From: a virus
Strand: one strand, 5' to 3'
IMG/VR virus record: IMGVR_UViG_3300035670_000566
Location: 1 to 39,418 of that record
DNA: 39,418 nucleotides
This document shows, in pieces, positions 5,554 to 30,662 of this stretch (position 1 is the first letter of the stretch; the number at the start of each line of letters is the position of its first letter). The translations under genes were made by a program, and so were the position numbers. The notes under the pieces are model-generated. The model did no database searches, had not been told where the DNA came from, and saw nothing but the letters and a program-made list of their open reading frames with translations.

Positions 5554-5582
5554 AGTATACCTTACGCACAGTCATTTTTCGA
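5554..5582 (-). promoter_or_regulatory. Candidate promoter before the 86 aa gene
   Basis: On the minus strand TCGAAA (5582-5577) and TATACT (5559-5554) are 17 bases apart. The -10 box is good and the -35 box is 4 of 6. It lies in a 60-base gap, unusual for this tightly packed module, about 40 bases before the ATG at 5511. Confidence 0.35.
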
Positions 5583-6681
5583 TGACGGCCTCAGCGTCCA
5601 GCAGGTTGTCCAACGTTGACAAAGGAACCCACGTTGTCTCCCCAGCGGTCAGGCGAACCCGATACCGGCCGATGTCAGCAACCAAAGTTTTGGTGGCCTC
5701 AACAGGAACCATCCGGCTGCCAGTCTCCACCCACTTTTCTCGGCTAATCCGACCGGACGGCGGGTGGACATCCAGCAGGCGATCCACCGCGTTATCCCAC
5801 GAAAACGACAGGGTGTCCTCAAACCGTGACTGGCGTTCCCACAAGGCCGGCCGCCCCATCTTGTAGGCGTGACGCATCGAGTCCACCAGTTCATCATGGT
5901 CTGGCACGAACCAGTTGCCGACACCAGCGAATTTGGACATGAAAGACTTTTGTTTGCGGGCCGACAGCGGGAAGTCAAACAGGTGGGAAAACATGAGATG
6001 ACCGTGGGCGGCTGTGCCGATCACCAGATTCCCTAACGCACATTGTTGGAGGGGCATCAACCCGAACCCTTCGCCCCTTGATGCCGAGACGAAACAGTCG
6101 GCGGTGGCGTGTAGATCGCGTTCCGCAATCGGATCGAGCGCATCCTTGATGACGGTGATCCGATCCTCAAAATCGTAGATTTGCGGGTCGTCAAACGTGT
6201 ACGGCGGGATTTTGATGACTAGTTCAGAGTCCGGCAGGTTCGCATCCTTGAACGCCTGAATGACCTGTGGGATGCCTTTACGCAACCACCCTGAGCCGCC
6301 AGTCAAAAAGCGGAAACGGTTGTTGTCAGGGACGTTCTGCGGAAACCAGACATCATGGTTGACTCCGAGGGGGACGACATGAACGTCGTCGTGGATGCTG
6401 TCAAACAGTTCTTTGTTCCAGTCGCATGGGACGATCACCCGGTCAAACAGGTGGCAGAACCGTTCAAAACGGGCGGGAAGACGGTCGGTTTCCCACATCG
6501 TCATAACAGCTGTGGACTGGTCGGCCCACCAGCCTTTCACCATGTCCGGCAACATTCCGAAAACGACAGTTCCAGCGTCGTCAGATAGTTCGGCTCGACG
6601 GGCGATATGGCGGGAAAACTCGTCCACCATTCTTCCGTAGCCGACATGAGGGATGTTCACCCCTTTGATGTCGTAGATCAT
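5572..6681 (-). CDS. GT4-type glycosyltransferase (family 1 fold)
   Basis: A 369-residue protein with the GT-B layout. The N-terminal half has VNIPHVGYGRMVDEFSRH (Gly-rich loop) and the middle has RVIVPCDWNKELF and HVVPLGVNHDVWFP, typical of GT4 enzymes. The C-terminal donor-binding half has FLTGGSGWLRKGIPQVIQAF and SASRGEGFGLMPLQQCALG, the Ex7E-like sugar-nucleotide site. It probably transfers a sugar from a nucleotide donor; the acceptor could be a virion protein or a host glycan. It lies within the virion genes and overlaps the 90 aa gene by 4 bases, so it would be made late with the particle. The substrate cannot be told from sequence. Confidence 0.85.
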   Translation of the reverse strand: MIYDIKGVNIPHVGYGRMVDEFSRHIARRAELSDDAGTVVFGMLPDMVKGWWADQSTAVMTMWETDRLPARFERFCHLFDRVIVPCDWNKELFDSIHDDVHVVPLGVNHDVWFPQNVPDNNRFRFLTGGSGWLRKGIPQVIQAFKDANLPDSELVIKIPPYTFDDPQIYDFEDRITVIKDALDPIAERDLHATADCFVSASRGEGFGLMPLQQCALGNLVIGTAAHGHLMFSHLFDFPLSARKQKSFMSKFAGVGNWFVPDHDELVDSMRHAYKMGRPALWERQSRFEDTLSFSWDNAVDRLLDVHPPSGRISREKWVETGSRMVPVEATKTLVADIGRYRVRLTAGETTWVPLSTLDNLLDAEAVIEK

Positions 6682-24253: not shown

Positions 24254-24454
24254 ATGACACACGGAAACGTGGGTAGACGATCATGCACCGACATGATCGA
24301 GCAGCGTCCAAACGACACAAATGCGAACGGTGACCGTCCTGAAAAAACCGGCGACCAGAGAAACAACTCAAACAGCGGGAGGACTAAACCATCCCTACCT
24401 TCTCGAAGCCGGCAACCCCAAAAACCACACTTGCACAACACAACTAATATATAG
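24254..24454 (+). CDS. Doubtful ORF, 66 aa
   Basis: Reads MTHGNVGRRSCTDMIEQRPN, then polar and low-complexity. GCGAGG lies directly against the ATG, too close for a usual ribosome-binding site, and the first 45 bases are occupied by two hairpins. Listed only because the frame is open; it may be noncoding. Confidence 0.22.
   Translation: MTHGNVGRRSCTDMIEQRPNDTNANGDRPEKTGDQRNNSNSGRTKPSLPSRSRQPQKPHLHNTTNI
24278..24299. other. Perfect 8-bp hairpin downstream of the initiator gene
   Basis: CGATCATG (24278-24285) pairs with CATGATCG (24292-24299), loop CACCGA. No T-tract follows, so it is not a clear terminator; it may be an RNA structure or a protein site near the origin. Confidence 0.6.
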
Positions 24455-24645
24455 CTATACGGCCCGCGCGCTCGGCAGACTACCGGTTGCGTGTTCGGCC
24501 TGATCGATTGGCCCCACCCACCCACCGAACCGGCCCACACGTGGCCCGCGAGAATCTGATCGACGCGAGAAAGAACCGGCCCCACACCTACCGGCCCGAA
24601 CAAGAGAGGCCCGCGCGGGTGTGGTTGGTGAGTGTGTCGCGCCTA

Positions 24646-24681
24646 GTGATCTAGGTGTGTGTGGTGATCTAGGTGTGTGTG
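24646..24681. repeat. Tandem 18-bp repeat GTGATCTAGGTGTGTGTG
   Basis: Two perfect copies, 24646-24663 and 24664-24681. Related copies occur at 26470-26486 (end of a CDS), 26803-26820 (GTGAACTAGGTGTGAGAG) and 29862-29876 (GTGAACTAGGTGTCA, in a CDS). All are inside the plus-strand early region and in the same direction. Confidence 0.75.
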
Positions 24682-24738
24682 GTGTGTGTGGTGTGGCGGG
24701 TGTGGTTGGGCTTGTCGGAGATTGTCGGAGATTGGTTA

Positions 24739-24768
24739 TTGACTGGCGGTTGTGTTGGTGCTTAGAAT
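24739..24768 (+). promoter_or_regulatory. Early promoter 1
   Basis: TTGACT (24739-24744) and TAGAAT (24763-24768) with an 18-base spacer, 5 of 6 matches in each box to the sigma-70/SigA consensus. The predicted start near 24775 leaves a short leader holding GGTG...CACC and GAAGAGAGAGAGG before the first small gene at 24812. Confidence 0.7.
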
Positions 24769-24811
24769 TGCGGGTGTGGCAGAAAGTCACCTGAAGAGAG
24801 AGAGGCCAGAA

Positions 24812-24988
24812 ATGGATGGTGTGTGTGAATCGGCGCGGGTGATTCCGTACCGTGGCGCGTTTCGTGTTGTGTATGGATCAGGTAGCACGGTTGGTTGGCG
24901 TACGTTTGATGATGTGCGTGATGCGTTCGTGTTTCTGGCAGAACGTGGAACGGTGCGGGTGACGTTCGCGCGCCGGTTTCTTCCCTGA
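24812..24988 (+). CDS. Early protein, 58 aa, unknown
   Basis: First gene of the rightward early operon. ATG 24812 follows GAAGAGAGAGAGGCCAGAA; the earlier in-frame start at 24752 lies inside the promoter and is rejected. Sequence MDGVCESARVIPYRGAFRVV then a Val/Phe/Arg-rich small beta domain. No family recognised. The first tRNA-like element begins 8 bases after its stop. Confidence 0.65.
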   Translation: MDGVCESARVIPYRGAFRVVYGSGSTVGWRTFDDVRDAFVFLAERGTVRVTFARRFLP

Positions 24989-24996
24989 TGTGGTTG

Positions 24997-25045
24997 GCCT
25001 AGTCGCGGTTCTGGCGCGCGTGTGGGTTCGATTCCCTGCTAGGCA
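24997..25045 (+). ncRNA. D-arm-less tRNA-like element 1
   Basis: Acceptor stem GCCTAGT (24997-25003) with GCTAGGC (25038-25044; last pair T-G), hairpin CGCG-GTTCTGG-CGCG (25004-25018), T-arm GGG-TTCGATT-CCC (25024-25036) and A as discriminator-like base. Preceded by the conserved GTGGTTG right after a stop codon; followed by a hairpin ACCGGCCC/GGGCCGGT (25048-25068), a GAGAGAGAGGG ribosome-binding site and ATG at 25090. It has no D-arm and no CCA. Confidence 0.7.
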
Positions 25046-25089
25046 CTACCGGCCCATTCGGGGCCGGTTCTAGAGAGAGAGGGTTAGTT

Positions 25090-25347
25090 ATGTTTCGTAG
25101 GTATTGGGTTAGGCGTGTTTCGCGGGTTCGTGTGGGTGTGCTTACTCTCGCGAATGAACGTGCGGAAATGGCGCGGGCGGGTGATCGTGAGAGCGCGTTG
25201 CGCGTCGCTAGTTTGGATCAAACGTCCGATGCGTTGGGACGTGTGATCGATGACCTACAGGCGAATGTGGCGGGTTCGATTGGTTCGGCGCGTTCGTGGG
25301 TGCGTTGGTGGAATAATCTGCCGGTGTGGGAACGTCGCGTGTTCTGA
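25090..25347 (+). CDS. Early protein, 85 aa, Arg-rich helical
   Basis: ATG after TAGAGAGAGAGGGTTAGTT. Starts MFRRYWVRRVSRVRVGVLTL, a basic hydrophobic segment that might touch a membrane, then a helical and charged part (NERAEMARAGDRESALRVAS, LGRVIDDLQANVAGSIGSAR) and a Trp-rich end WVRWWNNLPVWERRVF. No family recognised. It lies between tRNA-like elements 1 and 2. Confidence 0.7.
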   Translation: MFRRYWVRRVSRVRVGVLTLANERAEMARAGDRESALRVASLDQTSDALGRVIDDLQANVAGSIGSARSWVRWWNNLPVWERRVF

Positions 25348-25358
25348 TGTGGTTGGTG

Positions 25359-25406
25359 GCCCATTCCGGTTCTGGCGGGTTCTAGGTTCGATCCCTAGAT
25401 TGGGCG
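25359..25406 (+). ncRNA. D-arm-less tRNA-like element 2
   Basis: Acceptor GCCCA (25359-25363) with TGGGC (25401-25405), hairpin CCG-GTTCTGG-CGG (25366-25378, plus a T-G pair), and a perfect 6-bp T-arm TCTAGG-TTCGATC-CCTAGA (25381-25399). Upstream GTGGTTGG follows the stop codon. The downstream hairpin differs here: GGTGAC-ACACG-GTCACC (25409-25425), then GAGAGAGAGGG and ATG 25448. Confidence 0.7.
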
Positions 25407-25447
25407 CGGGTGACACACGGTCACCTATTGAGAGAGAGGGAAACAGA

Positions 25448-26098
25448 ATGGGCAAGTATTCGCAAGAGGTGCGGGTGTGTGGCGGGTGCGCGCACCTATT
25501 GGAAACGGAACCGGATTCGGTATGGCGTGAATCGTACAAATTACCGTTTGCGTACCGTGTCGTGTGTTCGTCGTGCGGGTGTGAATGTTCGAATGGTGTG
25601 GCGCATGTGGGCGCGGTTGTGTGGGTGGATGAACTGTTGGGAATGGCGCGTAAGCGTGGGGAAGAACATGCGACGTACGATCGAAATGATGGTGAGTATC
25701 GGCCTGACCCTCTCTCCGGAGTATGGGCGGGTGAGAGTGTGCGGGAACTGTTGGGTGATCTAATTGACGCGTTAGGCGATGAGTACACGGATGATGTGTG
25801 TGACGCGTATGAATCGGGATATGCGGGTGTGTGGTCTGATACTGATTCTGTAGATGTGTGCGCGGATTGTGTCCAAGTGTTGGCCAATGGTGTGTGCGAT
25901 GGTTGGGAAGATTCGCCGGATGAGACGCGCGAGAGGCCCGCGGGTGTGTTCCCCTATTTGATCGATGGTGCGTGGCCTACTGACAACGTGACGACGTTTG
26001 CGAAATGGCCATGTGAGTGTTGCGGGTCGCGGTTGGCGGGTGAACGTCACACGGTGCTTGTGTGGGTCGCACCGGATTCTGAGAGCGCGGGCGCGTGA
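25448..26098 (+). CDS. Early protein, 216 aa, with Cys clusters (zinc-binding?)
   Basis: ATG 25448 after GAGAGAGAGGGAAACAGA; the long in-frame upstream extension crosses element 2 and is rejected. Three Cys groups: CGGC (residues 11-14), CSSCGCEC (about 41-48) and CECCGSRLAGERH near the C-terminus (about 192-204), plus C.DC in the middle. The arrangement suggests two zinc ribbons around an acidic helical middle (GESVRELLGDLIDALGDEYT). No named family. It is the largest early gene and may bind nucleic acid or host proteins (inference). Confidence 0.7.
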   Translation: MGKYSQEVRVCGGCAHLLETEPDSVWRESYKLPFAYRVVCSSCGCECSNGVAHVGAVVWVDELLGMARKRGEEHATYDRNDGEYRPDPLSGVWAGESVRELLGDLIDALGDEYTDDVCDAYESGYAGVWSDTDSVDVCADCVQVLANGVCDGWEDSPDETRERPAGVFPYLIDGAWPTDNVTTFAKWPCECCGSRLAGERHTVLVWVAPDSESAGA

Positions 26099-26105
26099 GT
26101 GGTTG

Positions 26106-26155
26106 GCGGGTGCGCGGGTTCTGGCGCGCACGTGGGTTCGATCCCCACACCCGCA
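26106..26155 (+). ncRNA. D-arm-less tRNA-like element 3
   Basis: Acceptor GCGGGT (26106-26111) with ACCCGC (26149-26154), hairpin GCGCG? read as GCGCG-less form: stem CGCG/CGCG extended to GCGCG-type pairing around an 8-nt loop GGTTCTGG (26117-26124), and a perfect 5-bp T-arm GTGGG-TTCGATC-CCCAC (26132-26148). Discriminator-like A at 26155. GTGGTTG follows the stop codon directly; ACCGGCCC/GGGCCGGT hairpin at 26158-26178, then GAGAGAGAGAG and ATG 26199. Confidence 0.72.
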
Positions 26156-26198
26156 CTACCGGCCCATTCCGGGCCGGTTTGAGAGAGAGAGAGAAACT

Positions 26199-26486
26199 AT
26201 GAATGTTCGGGAGAGTGGGCGGGCCACGTTGCGCGCGCGGTTCTATGGCCCCAATAACAGAACCGGCACACGTATTCGCGTGACGCGGTTCGACAATCCG
26301 GCGGGCGCGGTTGATCCGAACCGGATCACGGTCGCGTGGGATCACGGTCTGAACCCGCAAGAGAACTACGTGCGCGCGTTCCGTGAGTATCTGACGCGCG
26401 CCGGTTGGAATGGTGATTGGGTGTCTTCGATGGTGTCCGATGGTGCGATTGGTGTCTACGTGGGCGCGGGTGATCTAGGTGTGTGA
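26199..26486 (+). CDS. Early protein, 95 aa, unknown
   Basis: ATG after GAGAGAGAGAGAAACT. Starts MNVRESGRATLRARFYGPNN, followed by a conserved-looking RIRVTRFDNPAGAVDPNRIT and VRAFREYLTRAGWNGDWVSS, an alpha/beta mix; ends DGAIGVYVGAGDLGV. The last codons lie within one copy of the GTGATCTAGGTGTGTG repeat. No family recognised. The gene closes the first early group; the long repeat-rich gap follows. Confidence 0.68.
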   Translation: MNVRESGRATLRARFYGPNNRTGTRIRVTRFDNPAGAVDPNRITVAWDHGLNPQENYVRAFREYLTRAGWNGDWVSSMVSDGAIGVYVGAGDLGV

Positions 26487-26889
26487 CCTAGTTCTGTTCG
26501 CGTTCTTTCACGTGGCGGTTGTGGGTGTGTGGGTTCTGGCGGGCGCGTGTCTACCGGAGAATCGCGCGCGGGCGCGCCGGTATCGGGCGCGCCGGAGAAT
26601 CGAACTAGAACGCGCGGGTTACCGTTACCGTCGATGATTCTGGCGGGTGTGGCAATGTGGGCGGGCGGGCCGGTTGGCCCGCTCTCTCACGTTTCGGGCC
26701 TTAGACCACGTTCTAGGATTCGTTCTAAGGCTCTCGCGCGGTTGGGTGTGGGTGTGGGGTGCGGGTGATTCTGGCGCGGGCGGGTGATCGATGCGGGCGC
26801 GGGTGAACTAGGTGTGAGAGGCCGGCGCGGGCGGGCCGGCGCGGGTGATCGATGCGGGCGGGCCGGCGCGGTTCGGGGGATTGTCCCGC

Positions 26890-26999
26890 GCGCGATACTG
26901 GCCCGCGCGCAATACGATCGGGCGCGATACTGGCCGGGAGAATCTGGCCGGTTTGCGCGAAATACTATTGACAAGCGCGACACGGTTCGCGCACAATAC
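26890..26999. repeat. Cluster of five GCGC(N)ATAC motifs around early promoter 2
   Basis: GCGCGATACTGG (26890-26901 and 26922-26933), GCGCGCAATACG (26905-26916), GCGCGAAATACT (26955-26966) and GCGCACAATAC (26989-26999). ATAC starts at 26895, 26912, 26927, 26962 and 26996. The last two flank and enter the promoter. The same motif is found at 29975-30046, 30157-30172 and 30478-30492. Operator function is inferred. Confidence 0.6.
26968..26997 (+). promoter_or_regulatory. Early promoter 2
   Basis: Perfect -35 TTGACA (26968-26973), 18-base spacer, -10 CACAAT (26992-26997; 4 of 6). The box overlaps one ATAC motif and another ends 1 base before the -35, so a repressor bound there would block it. 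It drives the gene run from 27046. Confidence 0.68.
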
Positions 27000-27045
27000 A
27001 GGTGTCGGCAATCAGGCCGGACGAATGAGAGAGAGGAAACAAGCT

Positions 27046-27231
27046 ATGAGTAGGCAATCGGGTGTGTTGTGGGGATGTCATTGGGAACGTCACCATTATG
27101 GGGTGTGTGTGTATGGTTTGGATTCGTCTGGCGTGTTTCGGACGATTCGGTATGTGGGCAACGGTTCGGATCGTGTGACGGTTCGCGGTTCGGTTGTTGC
27201 GTTTCGTCGTTTGATTGGGGTGACGCGATGA
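27046..27231 (+). CDS. Early protein, 61 aa, unknown
   Basis: ATG 27046 follows GAGAGAGAGGAAACAAGCT. Reads MSRQSGVLWGCHWERHHYGV, then CVYGLDSSGVFRTIRYVGNG and a basic end, a small beta protein. Its stop overlaps the next ATG (ATGA), starting a chain of six genes linked by 4-base overlaps (27046-28285). No family recognised. Confidence 0.65.
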   Translation: MSRQSGVLWGCHWERHHYGVCVYGLDSSGVFRTIRYVGNGSDRVTVRGSVVAFRRLIGVTR

Positions 27232-27371
27232 TTGATTCCGGGATGATGCTCTCTTATGAGATGACGCACACGTTGATTGAGATTCTAGATTCACGTGATT
27301 GGGATTTGTTGGAAGAATTGATTGTGGTCTATGGCCACGATGAGAACACGGAAGAATTGGTGACGCGATGA
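27228..27371 (+). CDS. Early protein, 47 aa, unknown
   Basis: Reads MIDSGMMLSYEMTHTLIEIL then DSRDWDLLEELIVVYGHDEN, an acidic two-helix miniprotein. Coupled by ATGA overlaps at both ends. Its first 21 bases match, with two differences, the start of the gene at 27771 (MIDPGMM), hinting at a shared origin of the 5' ends. Confidence 0.62.
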   Translation: MIDSGMMLSYEMTHTLIEILDSRDWDLLEELIVVYGHDENTEELVTR

Positions 27372-27586
27372 CCAACGATGAGATGTGTTTCCGTGTCACG
27401 TTCACGTTTGAGTACGCGACGGTTGCGACCGTTGTTGCGGTTCCGGTTCGTGAAGATGAGGCCGACTATTCGGATGATCCGTCCGCGATTGACGTTGCTA
27501 CTGATCTGTTGGCCGATTGCTACGGTTGGGATATGGCGAGTGCGTTCGATGTGGATGTGGAACCGTTGGAATGGGTGGCGCGATGA
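27368..27586 (+). CDS. Early protein, 72 aa, acidic
   Basis: Reads MTNDEMCFRVTFTFEYATVA then a beta-hairpin-like Val-rich part and an acidic tail (REDEADYSDDPSAIDVATDL, ending DVDVEPLEWVAR). Strong net negative charge, as in some phage inhibitors and DNA mimics, but no evidence beyond composition. Overlaps its neighbours by 4 bases on each side. Confidence 0.65.
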   Translation: MTNDEMCFRVTFTFEYATVATVVAVPVREDEADYSDDPSAIDVATDLLADCYGWDMASAFDVDVEPLEWVAR

Positions 27587-27774
27587 ATCCGAACTATTAC
27601 CCTGATATCGATGATCCGGTGTTGTGTGACCATTGTGGGCATCCGTGTCACGCGGATGACGCGGTAACGGATGGCAACATCGCGTTGTGCGGGTCGTTCC
27701 GCGGTAACGGTTGTGCCGATCGTGCGATGTGGCGTGGTGATCTGATTGTCGGGATTGATGGGGGTGCGTGGTGA
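27583..27774 (+). CDS. Early small zinc-finger-like protein, 63 aa
   Basis: ATG 27583 inside GCGCGATGAA, overlapping the upstream stop. Reads MNPNYYPDIDDPVLCDHCGH then PCHADDAVTDGNIALCGSFR and GNGCADRAMW. Cys/His pattern C-x2-C-x2-H...C...C could bind one or two zinc ions. Unknown function; this operon has several other Cys-pair proteins (25448, 27995, 29247). Confidence 0.65.
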   Translation: MNPNYYPDIDDPVLCDHCGHPCHADDAVTDGNIALCGSFRGNGCADRAMWRGDLIVGIDGGAW

Positions 27775-27998
27775 TTGATCCCGGGATGATGGCAAGCTTG
27801 TCGGCCGATGATCTGGTTGGCGCGTTGGTTCGTTTCACACGTCATCGGAAACCGTGGACAGGAACGATTATCGATTCGTTGCGTGTTGGCGGTACTCTCG
27901 CGTTCCATCTGATCGATGACTATGGGCAACCGTGGTCGGCGGTTCGATTGGACGAGATCGATGTGGTTATCCGGTTGCGGGATGGGGTGACATTGTGA
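27771..27998 (+). CDS. Early protein, 75 aa, unknown (GTG start)
   Basis: GTG 27771 overlaps the upstream stop as GTGA; a second GTG lies one codon earlier. Reads MIDPGMMASLSADDLVGALV, then VRFTRHRKPWTGTIIDSLRV and an SH3-like beta pattern LIDDYGQPWSAVRLDEIDVV. A small beta-barrel is likely. The N-terminus resembles that of the gene at 27228. Confidence 0.65.
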   Translation: MIDPGMMASLSADDLVGALVRFTRHRKPWTGTIIDSLRVGGTLAFHLIDDYGQPWSAVRLDEIDVVIRLRDGVTL

Positions 27999-28285
27999 TT
28001 GACGTGTGTGCGATGTGCGATCGGACGCGCAACGATGTGGTGTACTCAGACCACGACGATTTGTGGTTGTGTTCGGATTGTTTGGCCGACACGGTTCGTT
28101 TGTGGGCCATCGATCGTTTCACGTCAATGTCCGACCGTGAGTATTCGGGTGATTGGTTCGGCGCGTATGGTGACGGTTGGGATGTGAACATCTGGCAGGA
28201 CGATGATCGTGTGCGGGTGACGTTGTATCGGTATGACGGTGGCCGGTTCTCCGATGGCGGTATTGCGTGCGGGGTGATTGGTTAG
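27995..28285 (+). CDS. Early zinc-ribbon-like protein, 96 aa (GTG start)
   Basis: GTG 27995 overlaps the previous stop. Reads MIDVCAMCDRTRNDVVYSDH then DDLWLCSDCLADTVRL: two CxxC pairs (Cys5/Cys8 and Cys26/Cys29), a textbook zinc ribbon, followed by a Tyr/Asp/Trp-rich tail (GDWFGAYGDGWDVNIWQDDD). It ends the second coupled gene chain; tRNA-like element 4 follows 10 bases after the stop. Possible nucleic-acid or protein-binding role. Confidence 0.68.
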   Translation: MIDVCAMCDRTRNDVVYSDHDDLWLCSDCLADTVRLWAIDRFTSMSDREYSGDWFGAYGDGWDVNIWQDDDRVRVTLYRYDGGRFSDGGIACGVIG

Positions 28286-28295
28286 TTTGTGGTTG

Positions 28296-28344
28296 GCCAT
28301 ATCCCGGTTCTGGCGGGCGGGCGGGTTCGATTCCCGGTATGGCA
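28296..28344 (+). ncRNA. D-arm-less tRNA-like element 4
   Basis: Acceptor GCCATA (28296-28301) with TATGGC (28338-28343), hairpin CCCG-GTTCTGG-CGGG (28303-28317), T-arm CGGG-TTCGATT-CCCG (28322-28336), discriminator-like A 28344. Upstream TTGTGGTTG after the TAG stop. The second hairpin is lacking; instead TGTCGGCA occurs twice (28349-28368 area), then a long GA tract (28370-28388). Confidence 0.72.
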
Positions 28345-28395
28345 CGATGTCGGCAACGGTGTCGGCATGAGAGAGAGAGAGAGAGAGAAAGAGTA

Positions 28396-28881
28396 GTGAT
28401 TACAATGGAAACGGAGACGCTAGGCAAGCTGTTGGCCGATGCGGGTGATAATACGATCGTAGAGTATGCGGGTGCGCGTTGGCGGTTCCGTGTCGAACCG
28501 GACTATGACACGTCAATCAACGATTACGATTGTTATGGGCGGGTCGCGCCGGTTGTGTCGCGGTATGGCCAACAACAAGAACGTCCTGATGGTTTCGATG
28601 GTGGCGCGGAGATTCTTAGCTGGCGAGGCCACGAACGGTATTGGTGGCAACCGTATGACGTGACGGACGCGGTGTATCGTAGTGCGACACGCCAAACGGT
28701 GTGTGACATCCTCGAATACGGTTTCCTGATGTTGTTCGTGGAACGGTTGCGCGATGAGGATGACGCGTATGGTCGGCCGGTTGTCGATGACTATTCCGTG
28801 GTGGGTGGCATCGAACCATTTCCTAGTGACGACGATCTGTCCGATTTGATTAGTGACGTGGTGTCGGAGATTGGTGTGTGA
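28396..28881 (+). CDS. Early protein, 158-161 aa, unknown
   Basis: Either GTG 28396 (5 bases after the GAGAGAAAGAG tract) or ATG 28405 could start; the GTG has the better spacing. Reads METETLGKLLADAGDNTIVE, an alpha/beta domain with YAGARWRFRVEPDYDTSIND and a Trp/Tyr-rich middle SWRGHERYWWQPYDVTDAVY, then a helix CDILEYGFLMLFVERLRDED and an acidic end. No family recognised. It is one of the larger early genes and lies alone between two tRNA-like elements. Confidence 0.68.
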   Translation: MITMETETLGKLLADAGDNTIVEYAGARWRFRVEPDYDTSINDYDCYGRVAPVVSRYGQQQERPDGFDGGAEILSWRGHERYWWQPYDVTDAVYRSATRQTVCDILEYGFLMLFVERLRDEDDAYGRPVVDDYSVVGGIEPFPSDDDLSDLISDVVSEIGV

Positions 28882-28888
28882 TTGGTTG

Positions 28889-28933
28889 GCGCGACCGTCT
28901 GGCGGTTTCTCCGGTTCGATTCCGGGGCGCGCA
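28889..28933 (+). ncRNA. D-arm-less tRNA-like element 5 (shortened hairpin loop)
   Basis: Acceptor GCGCG (28889-28893) with CGCGC (28928-28932), hairpin ACCG-TCTGG-CGGT (28894-28906; loop 5 nt, two bases shorter than the others), 6-bp T-arm CTCCGG-TTCGATT-CCGGGG (28909-28927, one T-G pair), A 28933. Upstream TTGGTTG after the stop; downstream hairpin ACCGGCC-AACC-GGCCGGT (28936-28953), then GAGAGAGAGG and ATG 28972. Confidence 0.72.
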
Positions 28934-28971
28934 CTACCGGCCAACCGGCCGGTTTGAGAGAGAGGATAGTT

Positions 28972-29247
28972 ATGGCAACGACAACACACCCGGATTGGGT
29001 GATCGTGCGCGGTAACGCGCGACGATGGGATTGGTACAACGAACAATCAACCACGGAACTGGCGTGGATCGATGACGATGGTTGTGATCGTGGTATCGTG
29101 GTCGCGGATGGGTCGCGTCGTGTGATCCGTTCGTGGTCGTCAAGGCAACCGGATGCGGATTGGGCCTCGCTGTACGGTGTGGCCGGTGTGGTGTCACGGT
29201 TCTTCGGCCAGGACGCGTATGGTCACACGGATTGGTTGGTGGCCTGA
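28972..29247 (+). CDS. Early protein, 91 aa, Trp/Asp-rich
   Basis: ATG 28972 follows GAGAGAGAGGATAGTT. Reads MATTTHPDWVIVRGNARRWD then WYNEQSTTELAWIDDDGCDR and SRRVIRSWSSRQPDADWASL, ending in YGHTDWLVA. A small beta domain with many Trp residues. No family recognised. The stop overlaps the next ATG (TGATG). Confidence 0.66.
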   Translation: MATTTHPDWVIVRGNARRWDWYNEQSTTELAWIDDDGCDRGIVVADGSRRVIRSWSSRQPDADWASLYGVAGVVSRFFGQDAYGHTDWLVA

Positions 29248-29630
29248 TGGATTGGTCACGCTACATCGCGTTGGGAGACGACACGTGTTCCGTGGAACCG
29301 TTGGAACAGTTATTGATCGTGGAATGTGCCGGTATGACGGAGAACGAGATTGATCGTTTGGAAACGGTGGGTGTTCTGCCTGATGGCCATTACGCGATCC
29401 CGATGATCGAGCTGTTGGCAGACGCGTTCCGGTATCGGGCCATCTTCGACGCGCCACACGATCCCGAATATTGTGCGTCGTGCGAGCTTGCGGGCAACGA
29501 TGCGACCCGGATCGACGTGGATTCCGCGCCGATGGTGAAATGGGATGTGATGGGTGATCCTCGCGCGTTCGCGTTGGTGTGCGATGAGTGTCATGAAAGC
29601 ATCGCAAACGATCCGAACCACGGTAGGTGA
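29247..29630 (+). CDS. Early protein, 127 aa, with Cys pairs
   Basis: Reads MDWSRYIALGDDTCSVEPLE then a helical ECAGMTENEIDRLETVGVLP and a C-terminal half with CASCELAGNDA and CDECHESIAND (CxxC and CxxCH), likely one zinc ion. The ATG overlaps the preceding stop by one base; the stop overlaps the following GTG. No family recognised. Confidence 0.66.
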   Translation: MDWSRYIALGDDTCSVEPLEQLLIVECAGMTENEIDRLETVGVLPDGHYAIPMIELLADAFRYRAIFDAPHDPEYCASCELAGNDATRIDVDSAPMVKWDVMGDPRAFALVCDECHESIANDPNHGR

Positions 29631-29917
29631 CGGTTCGGGCATCGTGGATCGAACGGTTGTATCTCAGACCAATCATCGGACGATGGATACCTTGCCCGCC
29701 AGAACCAATCCCGCGACGATTCTGTTGTGTGGTGCGCCATCCCGCGATGGGTGTGTATTGGCGCGACCCATACGGTGTGCGAGACGCGGGAACCGTGTGG
29801 GGGCCAGCACGTCAGGCGTGGCGGTTCCCATCGGAGACGGTTGCGCGGGAGATGGTGGATCGTGAACTAGGTGTCACGGTCGTCTATAGGACAGTAGAGC
29901 TGTTCGATTCACAGTAG
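29627..29917 (+). CDS. Last early protein, 96 aa (GTG start)
   Basis: GTG 29627 is coupled to the previous stop (GTGA). Reads MTVRASWIERLYLRPIIGRW then Pro/Cys segments (IPCPPEPIPRRFCCVVRHPA) and MGVYWRDPYGVRDAGTVWGP, a basic, Trp-rich protein. It contains a GTGAACTAGGTGTCA repeat. No family recognised. The early terminator follows 13 bases after the stop. Confidence 0.6.
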   Translation: MTVRASWIERLYLRPIIGRWIPCPPEPIPRRFCCVVRHPAMGVYWRDPYGVRDAGTVWGPARQAWRFPSETVAREMVDRELGVTVVYRTVELFDSQ

Positions 29918-29930
29918 CGGGAACCCCGGT

Positions 29931-29953
29931 CGATGTTGGTTCGGCCGGGGTTC
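29931..29953 (+). terminator. Terminator of the early operon
   Basis: GAACCCCGG (29931-29939) pairs with CCGGGGTTC (29945-29953), a 9-bp perfect stem; the two arms are only 5 bases apart, so the outermost pairs are the safest. TTCGTTGTG follows, a weak T-tract. It lies where plus- and minus-strand operons converge. Confidence 0.62.
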
Positions 29954-29974
29954 TTCGTTGTGTCGGCATCGGGG

Positions 29975-30046
29975 TCGCGCGCGATACTGATGGCGGGGCC
30001 GGCCTGATGCGCTCGCGCTCAATACTGTTGCTCGCGCTCAATACTG
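29975..30046. repeat. CGCGCTCAATACTG motif cluster at the convergent junction
   Basis: TCGCGCGCGATACTGA (29975-29990), GCTCGCGCTCAATACTG (30011-30027) and the same 17-mer again (30030-30046), the last two spaced 19 bases. Further copies at 30157-30172 and 30478-30492 lie inside minus-strand genes, where they encode (I/S)ERD-like peptides. The cluster overlaps the 3' end of the WhiB gene (peptide SISIEREQQY). Confidence 0.7.
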
Positions 30047-30462
30047 ATCGATTCTTTGTATTTGGTGAGACGTTGGTGTTCGGAACGCAACATATCGGTC
30101 AGGACGACTTCGTGGACGAGGTTCAGGAGTTCCGCTAACGCTTCTTCGCGAGGGTTGTCGCGCTCAATACGATCTCGCGTGACGGCAACAGGCACGTGGA
30201 CGGACGGTTTGCGTAGTTTGAGACGTTGTGCGGGCAACAGGCCACCGTAGATGCCGTACATATCTTCGTCCCGGTTGAATGTGGTGAGTATCCAGTCCAG
30301 GCATTGTTGTTTGACTGGGCAGGGTTCGGTGTCGTCTGTGCCGTTACAGATTTCGAGCGCGGTTTTGAGGGTGTGTTGGTCACCTTTCTCTGGGAAGAAC
30401 AGGTTGGTTTGTAACCCTCGGCAGGCGGCTTCTAGTTTCCAGTCGTCCAAAGGTTCCTCCAT
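30019..30462 (-). CDS. WhiB-like Fe-S regulator with wide Cys spacing
   Basis: A 147-residue WhiB/Wbl protein. Four cysteines: Cys14 (AACRG), Cys39 (EICNG), Cys48 and Cys54 (CPVKQQC). The middle spacing is C-x8-C, where the usual form is C-x2-C. GIYGG (70-74) and the basic LPAQRLKLRKP follow, as expected of the turn and DNA-contact region. The C-terminal 60 residues are a helical extension. Wbl proteins bind a 4Fe-4S cluster and act with the principal sigma factor; phage copies can lower host gene expression. It is the last gene of the minus-strand operon, at the convergent junction. Confidence 0.85.
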   Translation of the reverse strand: MEEPLDDWKLEAACRGLQTNLFFPEKGDQHTLKTALEICNGTDDTEPCPVKQQCLDWILTTFNRDEDMYGIYGGLLPAQRLKLRKPSVHVPVAVTRDRIERDNPREEALAELLNLVHEVVLTDMLRSEHQRLTKYKESISIEREQQY

Positions 30463-30662
30463 TGGGATGGTGCGTGGTCGCGCTCAATACTGATCTTGTG
30501 TTCAGCATTTTCGTAGAGTCGGATGATGTGTAGGCACGGATCGTTTTCGTCGAACTCGTCTGCTTCTTGGTCGCTCATAGGGAGGCTGTCGTGGGTGTAG
30601 CAGACGGGCGGCCCGCAGTATCCGTGTTCGATGCCGGCTTTGATCCATTCGTCAAATGTCAT
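30432..30662 (-). CDS. Hypothetical protein, 76 aa
   Basis: Reads MTFDEWIKAGIEHGYCGPPV then CYTHDSLPMSDQEADEFDEN and HIIRLYENAEHKISIERDHA. Two Cys and two His in the first half might bind metal. The ISIERD segment is encoded by one copy of the CAGTATTGAGCGCGA repeat. The ATG is coupled (ATGA) to the 30 aa gene upstream, and the gene overlaps the WhiB start by 31 bases. Confidence 0.62.
   Translation of the reverse strand: MTFDEWIKAGIEHGYCGPPVCYTHDSLPMSDQEADEFDENDPCLHIIRLYENAEHKISIERDHAPSQWRNLWTTGN

Follow-up and report, generated by a model that had tools for sequence, protein, structure and literature searches.

In plant mitochondria, tRNA-like sequences that lie by coding regions (t-elements) and are not aminoacylated let RNase P and RNase Z define mRNA ends, which is a form of tRNA punctuation (passages of PMC11658184 on t-elements). 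The PeSLs of T4-type phages are repeated intergenic stem-loop cassettes tied to modular gene shuffling (as cited in parts of PMC3950731 and PMC4503421). The start-associated sequences (SAS/ESAS) of cluster K mycobacteriophages are repeats ahead of the starts of non-structural genes; about half of them have inverted repeats, and the part of PMC3203893 that describes them assigns no function. Here, we describe an intercistronic cassette of an uncultured bacterial virus, IMG/VR record IMGVR_UViG_3300035670_000566, of which positions 1-39,418 (39,418 nucleotides, nt; hereafter the window) were analyzed. The cassette occurs at five junctions of a small plus-strand operon, from 24989 to 28971, and each copy is built round a tRNA-like element (T1 to T5) with an acceptor-like stem and a T-arm. 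The element is conserved as an RNA structure, genes have been exchanged around it, and it probably marks sites of message processing.

As with t-elements, the tRNA-like fold lies between cistrons on the coding strand. T-elements are homologous to particular tRNA genes (same passages of PMC11658184). The phage element differs in that it is free of an anticodon arm and stands in a fixed cassette with a hairpin and a ribosome-binding site, and its cleavage is predicted. PeSLs contain an early promoter (same parts of PMC3950731 and PMC4503421), whereas the cassettes here are built round the tRNA-like element and hold no promoter-like site, the sole such sites in 24400-30100 being at 24739 and 26968; identity with PeSLs was thus rejected. 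SAS is a 13-bp conserved sequence motif in the cited part of PMC3203893, whereas here conservation is of structure, not of sequence, and extends to the stop-codon side. A first-pass annotation of the window had likened the cassette to the start-associated sequences, and this likeness stands as an analogy only; the SAS motif GGGATAGGAGCCC was not enriched (6 matches in the window at up to three mismatches against 7.1 expected, none of them in the cassette region). A terminator was rejected as well, as no terminator-like site (GC hairpin plus T run) was found on the plus strand at any of the five cassettes.

An ordinary tRNA or tmRNA was also rejected. ARAGORN detected no tRNA gene and no tmRNA in the window and no tRNA in 20 of 21 related loci, the exception, L168, having a separate ordinary tRNA. 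Rfam 15 gave no window match at the gathering threshold, and the best relaxed match was that of T3 to tRNA-Sec (24.2 bits against a gathering value of 47). The element has the acceptor/T-arm stack of ~12 base pairs (bp) with a T-loop and lacks an anticodon arm with a 7-nt loop. The same part of the tRNA is kept in AT1, a minimal RNase P substrate of acceptor stem, T-stem and T-loop; AT1 is a laboratory construct, whereas the natural elements add a small hairpin at the place of the D-arm (AT1 as presented in part of PMC11143913). Single transcripts cut by tRNA-processing enzymes are similar in that a longer transcript is cleaved, but the parts of PMC11658184 and PMC11143913 on such transcripts describe no repeated intercistronic cassette. 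No description of such an element was found in titles and abstract openings of the open-access literature, which is weak evidence of novelty. We regard it as a new RNA family that would join two known principles, an action like that of tRNA punctuation and a mobility like that of PeSLs.

Each cassette has the order stop codon, leader of 7-11 nt with GGTTG, tRNA-like element of 45-50 nt, hairpin, GA-tract and start codon. The stops preceding T1 to T5 end at 24988, 25347, 26098, 28285, and 28881, and the distances from stop to acceptor-like stem are 8, 11, 7, 10, and 7 nt. GTGGTTG stands ahead of four of the five elements (24990-24996 at T1), and the fifth has ATTGGTTG. The first-pass annotation had placed five GGTTG-led elements behind stop codons in this way, each followed by a GA-tract and a start codon, and all of these parts were found, on the plus strand. 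Its hairpins were also confirmed, with ACCGGCC and GGCCGGT arms after T1, T3, and T5 and GGTGAC/GTCACC after T2, and T4, which it had left open, has one too. The start codons are 36-49 nt beyond the ends of the five covariance model (CM) matches. All elements listed below are members of the seed alignment of this model:

24997..25045, plus strand: T1 tRNA-like element, from acceptor-like stem to discriminator-like A (CM match 24994-25047, 67.8 bits)
25048..25068, plus strand: T1 hairpin, ACCGGCCC/GGGCCGGT (-16.9 kcal/mol, z -3.7)
25073..25083, plus strand: GA-tract (polypurine ribosome-binding site) ahead of the start at 25090
25359..25406, plus strand: T2 tRNA-like element, T-stem TCTAGG/CCTAGA, loop TTCGATC (CM match 25356-25408, 56 bits)
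25408..25426, plus strand: T2 hairpin, GGTGAC/GTCACC (-10.3 kcal/mol, z -2.9)
25430..25443, plus strand: GA-tract ahead of the start at 25448
26106..26155, plus strand: T3 tRNA-like element (CM match 26103-26157, 67.6 bits)
26158..26178, plus strand: T3 hairpin, ACCGGCCC/GGGCCGGT (-17.0 kcal/mol, z -3.9)
26181..26195, plus strand: GA-tract ahead of the start at 26199
28296..28344, plus strand: T4 tRNA-like element (CM match 28293-28346, 68.2 bits)
28347..28368, plus strand: T4 hairpin (-11.1 kcal/mol, z -2.7)
28369..28391, plus strand: long GA-tract ahead of the gene at 28405-28881
28889..28933, plus strand: T5 tRNA-like element (CM match 28886-28935, 52.6 bits)
28936..28953, plus strand: T5 hairpin, ACCGGCC/GGCCGGT (-13.8 kcal/mol, z -4.0)
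28956..28967, plus strand: GA-tract ahead of the start at 28972

The acceptor-like stem of T1 has 7 bp (GCCTAGT/GCTAGGC), and its T-loop is TTCGATT. The 5' half of the T-stem of T1 resembles that of T3, as if patched by inter-cassette recombination.

The tRNA-like parts are real RNA structures. A descriptor comprising T-loop, T-stem, one hairpin, and closing stem found five elements on the plus strand of 24400-30000 and none on the minus strand. The same descriptor yielded a mean of 0.023 and a maximum of 1 in 300 dinucleotide shuffles, and 111 matches in 6000 further shuffles. A covariance search of the whole record returned five elements, none of them outside this operon or on the other strand. 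The model was built from alignment A2, which holds twenty elements from ten records (window included) aligned by sequence only. Under the proposed structure, 86.1% of the cells of A2 pair, compared with at most 55.6% in slid controls, and the covariation score of 0.487 exceeded the slid controls (0.065-0.172) and was matched by none of 500 shuffles. Some pairs of the acceptor (closing) stem and the T-stem take three or four Watson-Crick forms, and some in the closing stem occur as GC, CG, AU, and UA. The A2 members were picked partly with a pairing-based scanner, so their covariation is not wholly independent evidence. The five 3' hairpins were more stable than their shuffles (z -2.7 to -4.0).

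It had been proposed in the first-pass annotation that the whole cassette was copied between genes. This held for T1 and T3 (84% identity over 75 nt) and for similar pairs in relatives, and not for the other elements. These differ by compensatory changes throughout and are thus long-diverged members selected for RNA structure, not recent copies.

The fold consists of the acceptor-like stem, one small hairpin and the T-arm (loop TTCGATT or TTCGATC), with no room for an anticodon arm. The single hairpin, the loop of which has 3-8 nt and no constant sequence, stands in for the D-arm, the anticodon arm, and the variable loop. The closing stem mostly has 5-8 bp and the T-stem 3-6 bp, and their lengths compensate: the sum was 11 or 12 bp in 35 of 40 stop-adjacent elements vs. 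31 of 111 chance matches found by the same scanner. An anatomy parser was run on 50 matches, of which 42 were used (7 unparsed, 1 duplicate dropped). The 3' strand from the T-loop to the next unpaired base measured 11 nt in 23 and 12 nt in 15 of them, and of the four lengths outside this range at least some were misparsed. Of these 42 matches, 40 had a purine as the discriminator-like base after the stem, and 40 had C as the next base; the third base was never C (0/42), thus CCA is not encoded. The acceptor sequences vary freely among the elements. A hairpin stem starts a few nt behind the discriminator-like base in 48 of 53 distinct leaders (from 58 matches), a score reached by 6.4% of leaders after mononucleotide shuffling, and a purine-rich ribosome-binding site usually comes next. 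Two elements of L093 (starts 1410 and 2053, minus strand, reverse-complement count) have the loop ATCGTTC instead of TTCGATT, with an otherwise identical architecture.

The element is not private to one phage cluster. The covariance model gave 37 matches in 83 sources and 23 in 89 (E up to 0.5, with redundant sources among them), and 16 of 50 whole records had a match at E ≤ 0.05. Members outside the seed include L018, the record of L025 (L197, L212), L186, L178, which shares the portal and terminase PHROGs of the window, and L182, a 77-kb record carrying a tail assembly chaperone and thymidylate synthase. Dozens more elements were found in other IMG/VR phages, both podovirus-like and siphovirus-like, with up to five well-scoring copies per operon. 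A pattern scan of IMG/VR yielded 96 stretches, and the 74 new loci among the 80 listed gave 27 CM matches at E ≤ 0.05. The matches in L295, L230, L231, L251, L291, L294, and L228 were ordinary tRNAs according to ARAGORN and were discarded; those in L250, L233, L238, L241, and L260 were of ambiguous nature. L236, L284, L283/L247, L286, L289, and L272 were accepted as members by eye from their stop context; the record ids of L236 and L284 are presumably IMG isolate-genome identifiers. L016 holds a diverged form (12.6 bits with filters off), which was not counted as a member.

The position behind a stop codon was also a property of the elements in other records. In 42 of 47 contexts, the distance from the stop to a point three bases ahead of the stem was 3-9 nt, a descriptive count in which the stop of the longest open frame was chosen, and a possible start codon lay downstream in the 47 contexts. 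In a controlled test, which used only records outside the seed, 14 of 24 matches lay 2-12 nt after a stop that closed at least 60 open codons, compared with 1.0 expected from random positions on the same strand. Of the ten that failed, several follow a shorter upstream frame or a stop that narrowly misses the 2-12 nt range.

A blastn search of INPHARED with the region found no match, thus the known relatives are seen from proteins only (terminase 26% to Streptomyces phages). In the Streptomyces phages Immanuel3, Ibantik, and Success, many early genes are likewise split by structured gaps of ~50-110 nt, but no tRNA-like element was found in those gaps, by the model in Immanuel3 and by inspection and scan in Ibantik and Success. 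Immanuel3 gave only weak CM matches, nine of ten inside annotated tRNAs and none in the early gaps; the gaps of Ibantik and Success show other hairpins. The early gaps of Success (L317) contain repeated long hairpins with a shared AAGGACACTC loop, which are not tRNA-like. A scan of GTDB contigs for the terminase, made with two peptide patterns only, found no relative. A narrow DNA pattern had 7 stretches in bacterial genomes, about the chance estimate; three of the seven loci hold tRNA or tmRNA genes (ARAGORN), and the sole CM match was inside the tmRNA of L219, so these stretches were rejected.

The 11-12-bp stack and the hairpin near the predicted 3' end led us to propose tRNA punctuation, in which host RNase Z and/or RNase P would cut a long message at the elements. 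We consider this reasonably probable. RNase P measures the acceptor/T-stem distance from the elbow, RNAs that present this stack get cleaved, and CCA-adding enzymes also act on the acceptor/T-arm part (PMC4919913, in part). Hairpins of acceptor stem, T-stem and T-loop are RNase P substrates (PMC11143913, in part), and the polypurine tract and the 5' stem-loop have mycobacterial precedents as mRNA stabilizers (PMC2358910, in part). The geometry of the element is compatible with cleavage by RNase P and/or RNase Z. The element copies no more of a tRNA than the portion gauged by these enzymes, in which the acceptor stem stacks on the T-arm and its elbow loop. It would fold right behind the stop codon within a polycistronic early transcript, where RNase Z may cleave immediately 3' of the discriminator-like purine, RNase P may cleave on the 5' side of the stem, or both may act. 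CC at positions 74-75 inhibits RNase Z. The downstream mRNA would be freed with a stable hairpin a few nt from its new 5' end, followed by the polypurine ribosome-binding site, and the operon might in this way be turned into separate, 5'-protected and independently translated messages. A 5' stem-loop protects only if it is close to the mRNA end. The cassette contains what is required for a cut 3' of the element to give a 5' end that is stable and can be translated. Cleavage is favored as it alone would account jointly for the constant helix length, the T-loop, the end that has purine and C but no CCA, and the adjacent downstream hairpin.

Several points weigh against tRNA punctuation. Folded in isolation, the tRNA-like cores have a stability ordinary for their composition (z -0.4 to -1.9), so the case for them is based on covariation, conservation and position. 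No CM match was obtained in 34 of 50 related records; these relatives may manage without the element, carry forms too diverged, or have lost it with contig ends. The T-stem of T1 has three pairs only. The usual R-C-C-A end is only half matched, and base -1 is mostly G (28/42), whereas the classic RNase P substrate is noted for a U at this position. After an RNase P cut, the upstream mRNA would also end without protection, 7-11 nt past its stop, so the stronger part of the proposal may be RNase Z alone, which would leave the upstream message ending in a tRNA-like fold. Cleavage and the host enzymes are predicted, and the actinobacterial mRNA-decay precedents would apply by analogy.

If the processing model is true, the cassette would give bacteria a virus-encoded equivalent of mitochondrial tRNA punctuation, and would explain how in some phages packed early genes are separated and their messages protected without intervening promoters or terminators. 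RNase P/RNase Z processing of phage mRNA would become directly testable through the cassette, which is also a possible compact part for the construction of multi-gene operons in laboratory strains. We suggest tentatively, with slightly more doubt than belief, that the elements form a widespread, unrecognized phage RNA family that punctuates polycistronic messages in bacteria, a role that tRNAs have in mitochondria. Cleavage by RNase Z would then leave a tRNA-like, possibly CCA-tailed 3' end upstream and a 5' hairpin downstream, so that the genes become autonomous plug-in modules.

Alternatively, the element might be structural punctuation that is never cut, either a compact roadblock to 3' exonucleases or a means to isolate the translation of cistrons. 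A few nt past a stop is the expected place for a 3'-protecting structure, a second hairpin follows the element, and the 36-49 nt noted above uncouple the cassette junctions, while other junctions of the operon mostly overlap. A plain hairpin would suffice for such a role, however, and the 11-12-bp sum, the TTCGATT-like T-loop, and the avoidance of CCA would be left unexplained; we consider this reading unlikely. A decoy or regulatory tRNA mimic that titrates or senses a host tRNA-binding factor (a modification enzyme, a tRNA-targeting defense nuclease or a synthetase) would account for the T-loop and T-stem, which match the targets of elbow-binding factors, and for up to five copies per operon. 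However, a decoy needs neither an intercistronic site a few nt past a stop nor a trailing hairpin with a ribosome-binding site, and the freely varying acceptor sequences conserve no synthetase identity, which makes the decoy improbable.

Modular gene exchange at the cassettes was supported by comparison with relatives. The operon lies at 24.8-29.9 kb and consists of short genes, between the structural genes, with terminase and portal transcribed leftwards, and a minus-strand recombination block encoding a RecE-like exonuclease, a single-strand annealing protein, SSB, and RusA. Apart from the five cassette junctions, its annotated junctions overlap or abut, bar one gap of 559 nt (26487-27045) with a promoter-like site. 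None of ten operon genes tested had a Pfam assignment above the cut-off. The genes and sites concerned are:

24739..24768, plus strand: promoter-like site ahead of the cassette operon (TTGACT-18-TAGAAT)
24812..24988, plus strand: gene 1, open reading frame upstream of T1, function unassigned; homologue in L003 (90%)
25090..25347, plus strand: gene 2, between T1 and T2, a present/absent unit; 92% identical in L167
25448..26098, plus strand: gene 3, between T2 and T3; phrog_3034 (function unassigned)
26199..26486, plus strand: gene 4, after T3; phrog_3199 (function unassigned); in L005, L095, and L112
26968-26997: second promoter-like site, preceding the block of overlapping genes at 27046; motif also at the corresponding place in L003, L005, and L088
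27995..28285, plus strand: gene before T4; in L005 (97%)
28405..28881, plus strand: gene between T4 and T5; 52-58% identical in L005, L003, and L095
28972..29247, plus strand: gene after T5; 97% identical in L003 and L005

Window cassettes were compared with those of three relatives, in 11 comparisons that have genomes in common and do not count as independent. In every one, identity was 80-98% in the element and at background level in one or both flanks (null mean 61%). Gene 2, with the T2-type cassette behind it, was present in the window and L167 and absent from L003 and L005, in both of which T1 leads directly to the gene 3 homologue; tblastn with a cut-off of E ≤ 1 found no gene 2 match in the remaining eight relatives searched, among them L003 and L005. 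T4 is the centre of a 112-nt island of ~97% identity (98% in the element) between the window and L003, where both neighboring genes are unrelated, and in L003 and L167 an unrelated gene replaces that at 27995..28285 ahead of the same T4. In both the window and L003, gene 1 stands before T1, and its homologue in L167 (70%) is at a different place in the gene order. The gene 3 homologues of L003, L005, L167, L093, and L095 align to the later part only, and gene 4 was not found in L003 or L167 by tblastn. At T5 and T2, the flank that had diverged holds a distantly homologous gene, not an unrelated one. One swap boundary, that of the gene before T4, fell at an overlapping junction, which indicated that the cassettes are not the sole exchange points.

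These results bore out the modular gene insertion suggested by the first-pass annotation. It had named, as the case that would refute its reading, relatives with the same genes in the same order and no conservation of the cassette; the relatives showed the opposite. Gene insertion is likely a consequence, and the primary function is likely RNA processing and expression, which the annotation did not contain. Each gene carries its own stop-side and start-side half, so the cassettes of roughly 110 bp could double as homology for gene exchange or insertion, perhaps via the phage's own RecE-like exonuclease and annealing protein. The cassette is a clear natural example of a single part that unites regulatory RNA with gene mobility.

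The switches of homology at the cassette in all 11 comparisons, together with the recombination proteins in the window, would also fit a cassette for recombination only, in which the repeats are DNA homology and the RNA fold is incidental. However, the compensatory changes keep pairing and destroy DNA identity, the reverse of selection based on homology, and the elements stay on one strand and close to the stop, with a helix of constant length. Since selection kept pairing and not sequence, a DNA-only repeat is very improbable. Least probable of all are relic tRNA genes or functional truncated tRNAs without a D-arm, which the T-loop, the acceptor and the 7-nt hairpin loop GTTCTGG of T1, T2, and T4 (U at the place of U33) recall, but the loop ranges over 3-8 nt and offers no constant anticodon, neither ARAGORN nor Rfam above its threshold called a tRNA, and relics would not keep covarying.

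The promoter-like motif at 24739-24768 recurs in L003, where it lies ahead of gene 1, and in L005 and L088, where it lies ahead of the first gene, and the number of promoter-like sites in 24400-30100 was no greater than chance. GT-rich tandem repeats (GTGATCTAGGTGTGTGTG) lie at 24646-24695, just ahead of the operon. A non-coding GC-rich repeat of the type TCGCGCnCAATACTGAT was found at 26885-26935, 29972-30049, and 30475-30495, at both ends of the second gene block, and is possibly an operator or origin. A glycosyltransferase-like gene lies at 5572-6681 on the minus strand, within the structural gene block.

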